From Archaeoglobus sulfaticallidus PM70-1 (GTDB lineage Archaea > Halobacteriota > Archaeoglobi > Archaeoglobales > Archaeoglobaceae): 64,000 nt of DNA. Positions 4,812 through 34,540 of the stretch are shown here, in pieces. The stretch spans positions 1,780,571 through 1,844,570 of the forward strand of contig NC_021169.1 of NCBI RefSeq assembly GCF_000385565.1, in the 5' to 3' direction. Numbering within the stretch: position 1 is the stretch's first letter; the number at the start of each line of letters is the position of its first letter. The position numbers and the translations under genes are program-made. The notes beneath the pieces are model-generated. The model ran no database searches, was not told the DNA's origin, and saw only the letters and a list, made by a program, of their open reading frames with translations.

Positions 4812-6548
4812 TTACTCAACAGTAACACTTTTGGCGAGATTTCTGGGCTTGTCTATCTCACACCCCCTCAACTTCGCCGTGTAGTAAGCCAGTAGTTGTA
4901 ATGCCACAGACTGTGTTATTGGCGTTAGCAGAGGATTTACCGCTGGCAGTTTTACAACATGATCAACATACTTTTCGATCTCCTCATCGTTTTCATCTGA
5001 GATTGCCAGTACGAAACTCCCTCTCGCTTTTATCTCTTTTATGTTGTTCAGCATTATCTCGTATGTCTCATCCCTCACGACACATGCTATAACTGGCATA
5101 TCCTTGCCAAGCAGAGCGAAGGGTCCATGTTTTAGCTCTCCAGCAGGATATGCTTCGGCGTGGATGTATGATATCTCCTTCATCTTCAAAGCCCCTTCCA
5201 TGGCTGTAGGGTAGGCTATGCCTCTGCCAACATACATCAAGTTCCGATACTTGGACAGGATTTCAGCAACATCCTCGATATCCTCTTTGTTGTCCAGTAT
5301 TTTTCTGACCTCTCCTGAAATCTTTTCCAGCTCATTTAGCAGATCTATGCGGTTTGACAGTTTAAAAGCCAGAACATATATGACGATTAACTGAGAAATG
5401 AAAGATTTTGTCGCAGCTACACTTATTTCAGGTCCAGCCCTCGTGAATAAGGTCTCATCGGCAATTCTGGTTGCCGTGCTTCCGAGAACATTGGCTATTG
5501 TGACGACCCTGTTTCCAAGTTTCTTTGCCAGCCTCATAGCTTCGAGTGTGTCGGCAGTCTCACCAGACTGGGTTATTGCAATGTATGTTGCCCTTTCCGG
5601 TGGAGGATGGTAGTTGAATTCGGATGCTATCTCAACCCTGACAGGCAGCTTGGCAACCTTTTCGATCACATGCTTTGCTATCAAACCGGCATGGTACGAG
5701 GTTCCGCATGCCACGAAAACGAATTTATCATAACCTAAATCGAACTCTCGATCCATATGTTCTGAAAGCGTATCATCTATGACTCTGGGAATTTCGTGGA
5801 TTTCTTTCAACATGAAATGTTCATATCCTCCCTTTTCCGCATCCTCGATACTCCATGGTATGATTTCTGCTTCTTTATCAACTGGTTTCCCGTTTCTGAA
5901 TACTTTAACTTCCTTTTCAAGCTCTGCAATCTCCCCATCTTCGAGAAAAATAACTCTGTTCGTGTAGTCGAGTATCGCTGGAGTATCAGAGGCTACGAAA
6001 AGCTCATCATCCCCAACACCCAGTATCAACGGGCTTTTATTTCTCGCGACGACTATTTTATCTTCGTTGGCGTGGATTACCGCTATGGCGTATGAGCCTT
6101 TAACAGCACTCAACGCTTTCTCAACAGCTTCCTTCAAATCACCATCGTAAAATTCTTCTATCAGGTGTGCTAAAACCTCTGTATCGGTTTCAGATTTGAA
6201 AACATGGTTCTTAGCGGTCAGCACTTCTTTGAGTTCCTGAAAGTTTGTGATTATGCCGTTGTGCACAACGGCTATCGCTTCGCTGCAGTCTGTATGTGGA
6301 TGGGCATTAACATCGTTCGGTTCACCATGTGTTGCCCATCTGGTGTGCCCGATTGCCATCCTGCCGTTAGAGAGACTGAACTTCTCTACCTTCCCTATAG
6401 CTCCGGTTTTTTTATGAACAAGAACCCCACCATTATCTTTAATGGCTATACCCCATGAATCGTACCCTCTATATTCTAACCTTTTCAAAGCTTTGATGAT
6501 AACCTCATCGGCTCTTCTAAAACCGATATAACCTACAATTCCACACAT
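4812..6548 (-). CDS. glmS: glutamine--fructose-6-phosphate aminotransferase (GlmS)
   Basis: 578 residues. It converts fructose-6-phosphate and glutamine to glucosamine-6-phosphate, the first step to UDP-GlcNAc. The N-terminal Ntn glutaminase begins MCGIVGYIG, with Cys2 as nucleophile after Met removal. Two SIS isomerase domains follow (SQSGETADTLEAM near residue 330; a second near 440-560), and the end is the family's LAKSVTVE. It starts one base after the upstream sugar nucleotidyltransferase stop, so it is in an operon with two GlmU-like genes that act later in the same pathway. No glmS ribozyme-like leader is apparent. Confidence 0.97.
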   Translation of the reverse strand: MCGIVGYIGFRRADEVIIKALKRLEYRGYDSWGIAIKDNGGVLVHKKTGAIGKVEKFSLSNGRMAIGHTRWATHGEPNDVNAHPHTDCSEAIAVVHNGIITNFQELKEVLTAKNHVFKSETDTEVLAHLIEEFYDGDLKEAVEKALSAVKGSYAIAVIHANEDKIVVARNKSPLILGVGDDELFVASDTPAILDYTNRVIFLEDGEIAELEKEVKVFRNGKPVDKEAEIIPWSIEDAEKGGYEHFMLKEIHEIPRVIDDTLSEHMDREFDLGYDKFVFVACGTSYHAGLIAKHVIEKVAKLPVRVEIASEFNYHPPPERATYIAITQSGETADTLEAMRLAKKLGNRVVTIANVLGSTATRIADETLFTRAGPEISVAATKSFISQLIVIYVLAFKLSNRIDLLNELEKISGEVRKILDNKEDIEDVAEILSKYRNLMYVGRGIAYPTAMEGALKMKEISYIHAEAYPAGELKHGPFALLGKDMPVIACVVRDETYEIMLNNIKEIKARGSFVLAISDENDEEIEKYVDHVVKLPAVNPLLTPITQSVALQLLAYYTAKLRGCEIDKPRNLAKSVTVE

Positions 6549-19801: not shown

Positions 19802-20950
19802 ATGATGCTGAAGGAGTACGAGGAAAGAGGAGACAAGGTTTTTTTGTTGAGGGGAATAGTTGAGGTTAGAATACCCATCAAAGCTTATGAGCGATTGATA
19901 AAGAGAAAAGATAAGGAGTACATAATCTCTTTTGGTGAGCCAAGAAAGGTTTTGAACCACATCACAAAAAGAGAACTCGTTTTTGTTACGAAAGAGAGTG
20001 GAATTCCTCTTTTGGGAAGTTCAAGCTTTGGCTTGATCGACAGGGGTACAAATTTAATTCAGGTAAGGCCCATCACCGGATGCAATCTGAGATGTATCTT
20101 CTGCAGCGTTGATGAAGGAAAGAAGAGTAAAACCAGAGCTACGGACTACATTGTGGATCCGGACTATCTGGTGGAGGTGCTGAAGCAGGTTGTTGAGTTC
20201 AAGGGGGAAGGAGTTGAAGTGCACATCGATGGTCAGGGTGAACCTCTGCTCTATCCATATATGGAAGATCTACTATCGAAGATCTCAAAGATAAAGGGTG
20301 TTAGCATAATATCAATGCAAACCAACGGAATCCTGCTTAATGAGAGCAAGATATCTGCCCTCGAGGAATATGTAACGAGGTTCAACCTCTCATTAAGCTC
20401 CCTCGACAGAGATACCGCAAGCAGGCTGTCAGGCATCAAGTATCCTGTAGAGAGGGTGACGAGAAACGCCGAGATGATTGCAAACAGCAAGGCAGACCTC
20501 CTGATAGCCCCGGTATGGGTTCCGGGGATCAATGATAGAGATATCGAGAAGATCATAGAGTTCGCGCTGGAGATAAATGCGGGCAAGAGATTTCCACCTC
20601 TCGGAATCCAGAAGTACATACCATACAAGTACGGAAGGAAGCTGAAGAAAGTCATGACCTTTAAGGAGTTCTACGACAGGCTCAGGAAGTGGGAAGAAGA
20701 ATATGGTGTAAAGCTGATACTCAAGCCAGAAGATTTTGGAATGGATAAGAGAAGCAGAATCCCGCATCCGATAAAAAAGGGAGAGATGCACTCTGGCAGA
20801 ATTGTTGCCAATGGGAGGCTGTTTGGTGAAAGGATGGTTGCGGTCAGGGACAGGGTTGTAACCATCAGATGCGACAAAAGAGTTGGCGATCATGTTAAAT
20901 TCAGAATAACTGCGGATAAGGACGGCATATTCTATGGAGAGGTCGTTTGA
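19802..20950 (+). CDS. radical SAM enzyme of unknown function (COG2100 type)
   Basis: 382 residues. The radical SAM CX3CX2C cluster site is CNLRCIFC near residue 95, followed by a GQGEPLLYP SAM-binding motif near 145 and a TIM-barrel-like core. The C-terminal 70 residues (from about 315; SGRIVANGRLFGERMVAV) resemble a TRAM/OB-type RNA-binding extension. The N-terminal 80 residues precede the barrel. Archaeal members are uncharacterised; the RNA-binding-like tail hints at RNA or tRNA modification, which is inference. It follows the small HTH gene. Confidence 0.75.
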   Translation: MMLKEYEERGDKVFLLRGIVEVRIPIKAYERLIKRKDKEYIISFGEPRKVLNHITKRELVFVTKESGIPLLGSSSFGLIDRGTNLIQVRPITGCNLRCIFCSVDEGKKSKTRATDYIVDPDYLVEVLKQVVEFKGEGVEVHIDGQGEPLLYPYMEDLLSKISKIKGVSIISMQTNGILLNESKISALEEYVTRFNLSLSSLDRDTASRLSGIKYPVERVTRNAEMIANSKADLLIAPVWVPGINDRDIEKIIEFALEINAGKRFPPLGIQKYIPYKYGRKLKKVMTFKEFYDRLRKWEEEYGVKLILKPEDFGMDKRSRIPHPIKKGEMHSGRIVANGRLFGERMVAVRDRVVTIRCDKRVGDHVKFRITADKDGIFYGEVV

Positions 20951-33109: not shown

Positions 33110-34246
33110 TTATACTCGGCCATACAACCCACACATAATTCTGTCCGGCTTCTTTATCCCCCCAAAAAGAGTTTTTGCCCTGAACCTGCACCCTCCTGAA
33201 CATTCCATCCTATGACCACAATCCCTGCAAACCTCTATCTCATCTATACTCCAGAGGCACTTATCTGTGAGCTTTCTCCAGCAATTTGCAAGACCATCTC
33301 TTATATTTCCGACTGATTCAAAGAAACCACAGCGGGAGATATTTCCTTCTGGATCCGATGCACACATGTGAGCCCCGCAGGTGTATCCGGCAACTCTATG
33401 GGAAAAATCTCCAAATCCATATCTGGACATGATCTTAACTGCCATATCAACCTCAACAAGAATATCTTCATTGAACCTGAGGTTTCCCTCAAGAGATGGA
33501 TAGTCCACCATCCACGATTTAATTGTTCCTTTGAACAGCTTTTCCATCTCGTCGAACTCGTCAATATTATACCTGTGAACCATTGTAGCAACGCTTACAT
33601 CAACGCCATAATCTATGAGGAGTTTTAAAGCCCTCATGGCCTTCTCGAATGTTCCCTTTCCCCTGATAAAATCGTGAGATTTGATCCCATCGATGCTTAT
33701 CTGAACCTCATCGACCTCAATCTTGCCAGCATTCTTCTCATCAATAAGTGTGCCGTTGGTTATCAGAACTTTCCTGAAATCGTAGCTTTCCAGTACATCA
33801 AGGAAAGAGTAAATCTCTGGATGGAGAAGAGGCTCACCCCCTGACAGCATGAGCTTTATCCCGCCAGCTTCGGAGAACTCTTCGATGAGCGTGTTGAATG
33901 TTCTGTAATCCATGTTCGTTTGCTTCTTTGGAAGATAGCAGTGTCTGCAGTTGAGATTGCATCTGAGCGTAACATGTACAAGCATGTGGCGAAGAGAAGG
34001 CCTTAAGGACTTGCTTGGTACATGAACCGGCCTTTTCTCATCACTAAATTCCAGAATTCCATTCTCAATGCAGTATCTCACAAACTCAGAATCTTTGGCC
34101 TCTTTCCCACCATCGCACTGTCTGAGAAACTCGAATGCCTCTTCGTCGAGTTCATATAGCTCATCGGTTTTTGCGTTGTAAACAACGGGCTTCTCAAAAT
34201 TCCTGAGCAGTATCCTATCTCTGAGAACCAAGCCTTTCCCTTGCAA
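33110..34246 (-). CDS. radical SAM/SPASM peptide-modifying enzyme with N-terminal PqqD-like domain
   Basis: 378 residues. Residues 8-75 (VLRDRILLRNFEKPVVYNAKTD onward) resemble the PqqD/RiPP-recognition winged helix. The radical SAM core follows with CNLNCRHC near residue 98 and SGGEPLLHP near 145. A C-terminal SPASM region (about 290-375) has many cysteines (CGAHMC, SRCGFF, VCRDCGHRMECSGGC, MCGLYG) for auxiliary Fe-S clusters. Fused PqqD-like plus SPASM is the architecture of enzymes that crosslink ribosomal peptides or make redox cofactors. It overlaps the upstream 60-aa gene by 32 bp, behind a 19-aa Cys-rich peptide. Start is TTG 34246 or TTG 34231. Confidence 0.85.
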   Translation of the reverse strand: MQGKGLVLRDRILLRNFEKPVVYNAKTDELYELDEEAFEFLRQCDGGKEAKDSEFVRYCIENGILEFSDEKRPVHVPSKSLRPSLRHMLVHVTLRCNLNCRHCYLPKKQTNMDYRTFNTLIEEFSEAGGIKLMLSGGEPLLHPEIYSFLDVLESYDFRKVLITNGTLIDEKNAGKIEVDEVQISIDGIKSHDFIRGKGTFEKAMRALKLLIDYGVDVSVATMVHRYNIDEFDEMEKLFKGTIKSWMVDYPSLEGNLRFNEDILVEVDMAVKIMSRYGFGDFSHRVAGYTCGAHMCASDPEGNISRCGFFESVGNIRDGLANCWRKLTDKCLWSIDEIEVCRDCGHRMECSGGCRFRAKTLFGGIKKPDRIMCGLYGRV

Positions 34247-34397
34247 AGTATATATCCTCCATTCTCAACTTCCCTTCTTCAACTAAGATCTTTATGATCT
34301 TGAATGCCCCGCATTCAAGCTGTTCATCGTTTTCCTTATAAAAATCACAGACTTTACACACACCATCAATCATCTCTCTCTTTGTTACTTCTGCCAC
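34215..34397 (-). CDS. 60-residue protein with CxxC and Cys motifs, part of radical SAM locus
   Basis: Starts at GTG 34397 after GGAGGG, 60 residues. CKVCDFYKENDEQLECGAFK near residues 14-33 has three cysteines; the rest is charged and helical (IIKILVEEGKLRMEDIYFA). It could be a metal-binding partner, a second substrate or a chaperone for the modifying enzyme whose gene it overlaps by 32 bp. Some archaeal radical-SAM loci encode small Cys-containing peptides of this size. I cannot name a family with certainty. Confidence 0.7.
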   Translation of the reverse strand: MAEVTKREMIDGVCKVCDFYKENDEQLECGAFKIIKILVEEGKLRMEDIYFARERLGSQR

Positions 34398-34431
34398 ACA
34401 AATCCCTCCAAAATTAAAAATAAAAAAGATT

Positions 34432-34491
34432 TTAGCAAGATGCGTTGCACTTGCAGACTCCGCTTTCCTTCGATACTTTCTCAATTTTCAT
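34432..34491 (-). CDS. 19-residue Cys-rich peptide, candidate RiPP precursor
   Basis: An ATG at 34491 preceded by AGGTGAT with a four-base spacer opens a 19-codon gene, MKIEKVSKESGVCKCNASC, ending in TAA. Three of the last seven residues are Cys (CxCxxxC) after a charged 11-residue leader-like part. It is the first gene after a strong TATA box, 34 bp before a 60-aa Cys protein and upstream of a PqqD-fused radical SAM/SPASM enzyme, so it is the obvious candidate substrate. No sequence family is recognised with certainty; the ribosome-binding site, promoter and context are the evidence. Confidence 0.65.
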   Translation of the reverse strand: MKIEKVSKESGVCKCNASC

Positions 34492-34523
34492 CTGAATCAC
34501 CTGATGAAAATAATAGCCTTATA

Positions 34524-34540
34524 CTTATAAGCTTTTCGCA
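34524..34540 (-). promoter_or_regulatory. BRE/TATA promoter of the Cys-peptide/radical SAM operon
   Basis: On the minus strand TGCGAAAAGCTTATAAG reads as a good BRE plus TATA box. The predicted start site about 25 bp on would leave a leader of about 11 bases, consisting of little more than the Shine-Dalgarno sequence of the 19-aa gene. Confidence 0.65.

Follow-up and report, generated by a model that had tools for sequence, protein, structure and literature searches.

The locus in Archaeoglobus sulfaticallidus

The window, by which we mean the whole stretch of 64,000 nucleotides analysed here, comes from the A. sulfaticallidus PM70-1 genome (2,076,931 bases, single contig), whose nearest named relative in a GTDB scan was Archaeoglobus sp. 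UBA234. Three genes follow one another on the - strand: one for a 19-aa putative precursor peptide (34432..34491, 19 codons plus stop, ATG start), one for a 60-aa accessory Cys protein (34215..34397, GTG start with its own GGAGG) and one for a 378-aa putative maturase combining RRE-like, radical SAM and SPASM regions (33110..34246, TTG start). The enzyme gene overlaps the 60-aa gene by 32 nt, and both its TTG start and its GGAGG Shine-Dalgarno are kept in orthologues. All three open reading frames were re-found where a preliminary description of this DNA had placed them, as were the promoter and ribosome-binding site that it had proposed. The BRE/TATA element (gcgaaaag cttataagta, about 34522..34539, - strand) lies some 35 nt upstream of the peptide gene; similar TATA and BRE-like elements are found 5′ of the gene in other loci of the genus (L010-L012), with variants in other genera. 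The Shine-Dalgarno AGGTGAT (34496..34502, - strand) ends 4 nt before the ATG, and GGTGA-type sites precede the peptide ATG in orthologues. Directly after the peptide stop is a T-rich run (34411..34431, - strand), alike in L010-L012 and thus common to four Archaeoglobus-genus loci. It is possible that this run is a partial terminator, in which case peptide mRNA would exceed that of the enzyme.

In some genera (L016:1298-1380, L021:1310-1390) the stretch from the peptide stop to the Cys protein lacks a usual start codon. The Cys gene must then begin inside the peptide gene, in a different frame, or else use an unusual start or a frameshift. A second radical SAM protein (383-aa open frame) is encoded elsewhere in the window, at about 20069-20566 (+ strand).

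The enzyme has the CX3CX2C [4Fe-4S]/SAM site and the Cys-rich SPASM tail that had been claimed for it. The former is CNLNCRHC at residues 96-103 (33938..33961, - strand); C96, C100 and C103 are invariant over 48 orthologues, and Pfam PF04055 was matched in 48/48 members. The latter contains seven Cys at residues 290-372 (33131..33379, - strand) in the pattern CX9-15GX4C...CX2CX5CX3C...C, with CXC replacing CX2C in some orthologues. Nearly all Cys of both regions are invariant over the 48 sequences, and two auxiliary Fe-S clusters are expected in the SPASM region; the Pfam SPASM model was matched by no member. A PqqD/RRE-like N-terminus, likewise proposed (residues 1-72, 34031..34246, - strand), is suggested by a predicted structure and only barely by sequence profiles. 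The AlphaFold model, built with the 48 orthologues (pLDDT 94.8, pTM 0.93), has a strand-rich wing and helices in an RRE-like topology at residues 1-68. However, the PqqD profile TIGR03859 matched one member only (E 1.7e-4), the window enzyme gave a marginal 0.0037 against NF038044, which we take to be a PqqD-like family, Pfam PqqD matched no member, and a search of solved structures with this segment alone returned nothing meaningful. The best PDB fold matches of the whole predicted enzyme were SkfB (E 1e-15), the SCIFF maturase CteB and the streptide synthase SuiB. All NCBIfam models were far below cut-off for the enzyme and none was matched by the peptides. Membership of a known NCBIfam or Pfam family was rejected for both, as none describes either.

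The 60-aa protein carries the motif Cx2C-[DE]F[YF]K ... LEC[GA]A, within which Cx2CxF...EC (C14, C17, C29) is invariant. It is predicted to fold as three helices (pLDDT 84), and a PDB fold search with this model found no match. In Nitrospirota and Desulfobacterota the protein is longer and has a second Cys set; its gene is divergent or lies just upstream. In two loci (L065 and L209) the Cys protein is fused onto the enzyme N-terminus. Aligned together, the fused and split forms were misaligned, and that alignment was left out of modelling. Because of the operon overlap and the natural fusions, we infer that this protein serves the enzyme as an accessory, probably as a subunit or a cluster/electron carrier.

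Conservation of the peptide and its co-occurrence with the enzyme

The window peptide, MKIEKVSKESGVCKCNASC, has a basic leader (MKIEKV...) and a C-terminal core VCKCNASC, in agreement with the closely spaced terminal Cys reported previously. Its gene is missed by gene finders. Enzyme orthologues (44-60% identity) were found in 15 of 40 Archaeoglobaceae genomes, the window genome included, and all 14 complete loci have an ORF of 19-21 aa immediately 5′ of the 60-aa gene. These peptides end in [IV]CKCxx[ST]C, with an extra A behind the motif in three. Over all pairs, pN/pS of the peptide codons is ~0.24, with synonymous sites near saturation. All 9 differences between two congeners (L010/L011) are synonymous, as are all 7 between L016 and L018. 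The preliminary description had held that its proposal would fall if related loci had no conserved small Cys peptide here, or if the synonymous/non-synonymous ratio of the 19-codon frame were near 1; neither is the case. On these codon comparisons the peptide gene is a real one under purifying selection. A chance ORF is ruled out by its presence in 14/14 complete loci and by near-zero reversed-pattern controls (the spaced version matched once over about 495 genome scans). No second copy exists in the window genome, where three other CKC-x3-C matches are unrelated; this species has the CKCN type only, adjoining the enzyme.

When GTDB species genomes were scanned with a profile of the orthologues, the enzyme was detected in Methanoperedens, Hydrothermarchaeota, Nitrospirota, Desulfobacterota and Actinomycetota (~33-46% identity) and, with 32-39% identity, in Asgard archaea. 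Most loci outside the Archaeoglobaceae have a peptide of ~20 aa ending in CKCxxSC (e.g. MKIKKIERTKRGLCKCKSSC, MTIRKVSKKVSVTCKCKSSC), located 5′ of the enzyme in most archaea and Desulfobacterota and directly 3′ in Nitrospirota and Actinomycetota. A spaced DNA pattern of the whole peptide matched 45/50 enzyme-bearing genomes, with zero matches for the reversed control in that set. Of the five misses, L077 and L088 do have the peptide, but spaced differently; the remaining three are Asgard loci (L046, L092, L095), from which a recognisable CKCxxSC peptide is absent, and the substrate of the Asgard enzyme may differ. Lokiarchaeal orthologues among these three have a small Cys protein 3′ of the enzyme. 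The residue preceding the last Cys is Ser in 93/94 distinct cores; the C, K, C and C positions of the core are demanded by the search pattern and hence are no evidence of conservation. A variant peptide, MKIRKVKHHLNGHCECKGSC, was seen at one enzyme locus (L096, near 5490-5552), in a genome with an ordinary CKCKNSC copy at another site (G439:C1:2289575).

The distribution of the peptide follows that of the enzyme almost without exception. In the Archaeoglobaceae the peptide occurs in 15/15 enzyme-positive and 0/25 enzyme-negative genomes (Fisher p 2.5e-11); one of the positives (G002) contributes a stand-alone copy only, as its contig breaks inside the enzyme. Among 198 Nitrospirota genomes the figures are 65/67 and 0/131 (Fisher p 1.4e-50), and among 247 Desulfobacterota genomes 25/26 and 0/221. 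One Nitrospirota miss (G581) is a failure of the pattern, as the genome carries VTIRKLTKKSALTCKCKGSC, and in the other (G478) the contig stops about 100 bases past the enzyme. The strict pattern thus finds the peptide in a total of 105/108 enzyme-positive and 0/377 enzyme-negative genomes. The p-values overstate independence because the genomes are related, yet the rule holds in three lineages. Nor is the co-occurrence due to physical linkage, since in several genomes the two genes are >100 kb apart or on different contigs (e.g. enzyme at 855,605 and peptide at 1,000,695 in G490; contigs 8 and 6 in G636). The earlier inference that the peptide is the substrate of the radical SAM enzyme is strengthened accordingly: given near-perfect co-occurrence in three lineages, even where unlinked, it is by far the likeliest reading and, although drawn from genome sequences alone, one that we hold with high confidence.

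Two other roles for the short ORF have to be set against this distribution. Cys codons in a short ORF heading an operon, together with the T-run after its stop in the genus Archaeoglobus, would suit a regulatory leader, i.e. a Cys attenuator of the enzyme operon. However, stand-alone copies lie far from the enzyme, Nitrospirota copies lie 3′ of it, non-Cys residues are conserved at both ends of the peptide and no copies occur in genomes without the enzyme, which leaves an attenuator scarcely tenable. Alternatively, the peptide could be an unmodified, metallothionein-like binder, with the enzyme acting on another target such as the 60-aa Cys protein. The spacing of CKCxxSC resembles that of metallothionein Cys, and the small Cys protein is likewise encoded with the enzyme. 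Yet a self-sufficient binder would not depend on the enzyme to the point of absence from all 377 enzyme-negative genomes, conservation extends to the leader M-x-[IV]-x-K-[VI], which offers no metal ligand, and the fusions make the Cys protein look more like a subunit than a substrate. We regard this alternative as improbable and retain the peptide as the substrate.

A second precursor class and its gene neighbourhood

Enzyme-bearing genomes often have a second copy with a CKC[HY]xSC core, mostly far from the enzyme. Copies without an adjacent enzyme are mostly CKCH, with two CKCY; in Methanoperedens (L040 and L043) a CKCH peptide is found at the enzyme locus itself. A heavy-metal P-type ATPase lies within 3 kb of 18/31 CKC[HY] copies, compared with 1/60 other copies (p 7e-10). 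Some comparison loci have <3 kb of flank, and when 3-kb flanks on both sides were required the counts were 9/19 and 1/28 (p 5e-4). Searched by motif, a heavy-metal ATPase was present within 4 kb of 21/31 CKC[HY] copies. Most of the neighbouring ATPases carry a CPC or CPH motif. We take these motifs to mark copper types, although CPC is found in Zn/Cd pumps as well. YHS or HMBD domains are present in several of the ATPases, which also adjoin short Met-rich proteins. These copies, encoded in copper operons without the enzyme, are the best functional clue to the system. No metal gene adjoins the window CKCN copy, and CKC[K/N] copies taken together show no link to the ATPase, so that a copper role for them is borrowed from the sister class.

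Roughly one in three CKC[HY] copies lies beside other genes (rhodanese, Trx-like, MerA-like), pointing to sulfur transfer as an alternative theme. About seven CKCH copies are beside a rhodanese-like gene, two of those also near an ATPase, and Trx-like, MerA-like and LarE/TusA-like genes lie near the copy in L152. Several enzyme loci have KorAB, SOD, rubrerythrin and peroxiredoxin genes close by. All these neighbours, along with a short precursor, an RRE-SPASM enzyme and no adjacent transporter or protease, would fit the same precursor-enzyme pair making not a metal ligand but a redox or sulfur-transfer cofactor, either PQQ/mycofactocin-like or a persulfide carrier. Against such a cofactor are the 21 CKC[HY] copies near heavy-metal ATPases, mostly of the CPC/CPH kind, and the lack of any dedicated dehydrogenase family conserved beside the enzyme. 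A cofactor is thus unlikely, though less so than either role considered above.

Proposed function and relation to known systems

Our main reading, to which we give a probability of roughly 0.6, is that an RRE-guided enzyme modifies the Cys core of the peptide to yield a cytosolic Cu(I) or other soft-metal peptide; the chemistry and the metal are inferred. The RRE-like domain would bind the basic leader of the 19-22-aa precursor, and the enzyme, assisted by the small Cys protein, would modify the C-terminal [I/T/L]-C-K-C-x-x-S-C core by radical chemistry. The homologues SkfB, CteB and SuiB suggest that the modification would probably be a crosslink or thioether at Cys, Lys, Ser or a neighbour. 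A thioether-type link in particular is a tentative suggestion made without chemical data, and rather less than an even bet. The same enzyme would modify CKC[HY]xSC precursors in trans, many of them encoded within copper-efflux operons. No transporter or protease had been noticed beside the locus, and no dedicated one is conserved among the neighbours of enzyme loci, which fits use inside the cell; the product may then remain cytosolic as a ligand or buffer of soft metal, most likely Cu(I). That it is a soft-metal ligand is somewhat more likely than not, as an inference made without metal-binding data. Any Cys consumed in thioethers would leave fewer thiols for metal, which counts against a metal ligand.

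The sactipeptide/ranthipeptide maturases SkfB and CteB (SCIFF) and the enzyme SuiB (streptide) share with the present enzyme an RRE-like N-terminus (predicted here), a radical SAM core and a SPASM region with auxiliary clusters, and the first two systems also a small Cys-bearing precursor. In contrast, the enzyme described here is only 14-17% identical to them, its precursors are of 19-22 aa with CKCxxSC at the extreme C-terminus and are also encoded elsewhere in the genome, conserved export or protease genes are lacking, and there is a separate small Cys accessory protein. Curated sactipeptide and ranthipeptide maturase models were not matched. PQQ (PqqA/D/E) and mycofactocin (MftA/B/C) have in common with the present system a very short precursor, PqqD-type recognition (here inferred), a SPASM enzyme and a product that is probably intracellular. 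Their cores are Glu/Tyr or Val-Tyr, whereas the core here is the Cys-rich CKCxxSC, and the enzyme scored 90 bits against MftC (cut-off 265) and 73.5 bits against PqqE (cut-off 381). The GeoRSP, ACGX and SynChlorMet systems of NCBIfam likewise pair SPASM enzymes with short target peptides; again the enzyme is far under the curated cut-offs (ScmE, 103 bits vs 400; GeoRSP, 90 vs 400).

Bufferins are copper-chelating RiPPs modified by MNIO (DUF692) enzymes (PMC12452194). Both systems have Cys-containing precursors with a tie to copper stress, which here is inferred from a genomic association of the CKC[HY] class alone and does not extend to the window copy. Here, however, the enzyme that co-occurs with the precursor is a radical SAM enzyme in place of an MNIO, the peptide has ~20 aa and no signal sequence, and hosts are mostly lineages of anaerobes. 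DUF692 was not noticed in the neighbourhoods read, although no systematic search for it was made. By enzyme type this is not a bufferin system, and the parallel is functional.

An RRE-SPASM RiPP system is of a known kind, but the precursor family, its length, the second precursor in trans and the copper context match nothing that we found in the family libraries or the literature searched. In that literature no paper was found naming the motif or the system; a prior listing as an uncharacterised cluster in the radical SAM RiPP atlas of Clark and Seyedsayamdost (2022, doi 10.1021/jacs.2c06497) is not excluded. We consider it an evenly balanced question whether this is an undescribed RiPP class of anaerobic and deep-branching archaea and bacteria, in which a single RRE-radical SAM enzyme per genome converts housekeeping CKC[K/N]xSC and copper-operon CKC[HY]xSC precursors to cytosolic Cu(I)-binding peptides, as an oxygen-independent counterpart of methanobactins and bufferins. 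The data add a ribosomal peptide family with very short precursors, common to archaea and bacteria and overlooked by gene callers, NCBIfam and Pfam, and provide an enzyme-substrate pair that is clear and testable, in which substrates are also encoded in trans. Should the copper link be true, often-anoxic organisms make a peptide metal ligand where aerobes use oxygen-dependent MNIO enzymes, and a modified metal-binding peptide, functionally like bufferins or metallothioneins, would be produced without oxygen.

Two further arrangements were seen at enzyme loci. A small cupin-like protein, in some cases ending in poly-His, adjoins the enzyme locus in six bacterial cases (L052, L054, L078, L079, L085 and L050) and is possibly a further partner of the system. 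Beside the enzyme in L202 (230-1735; G401:C231), two identical precursors, MSIKKVEKKMRGTCKCKVSC, lie ~1.4 kb apart, separated by one cupin-like and one methyltransferase-like gene.
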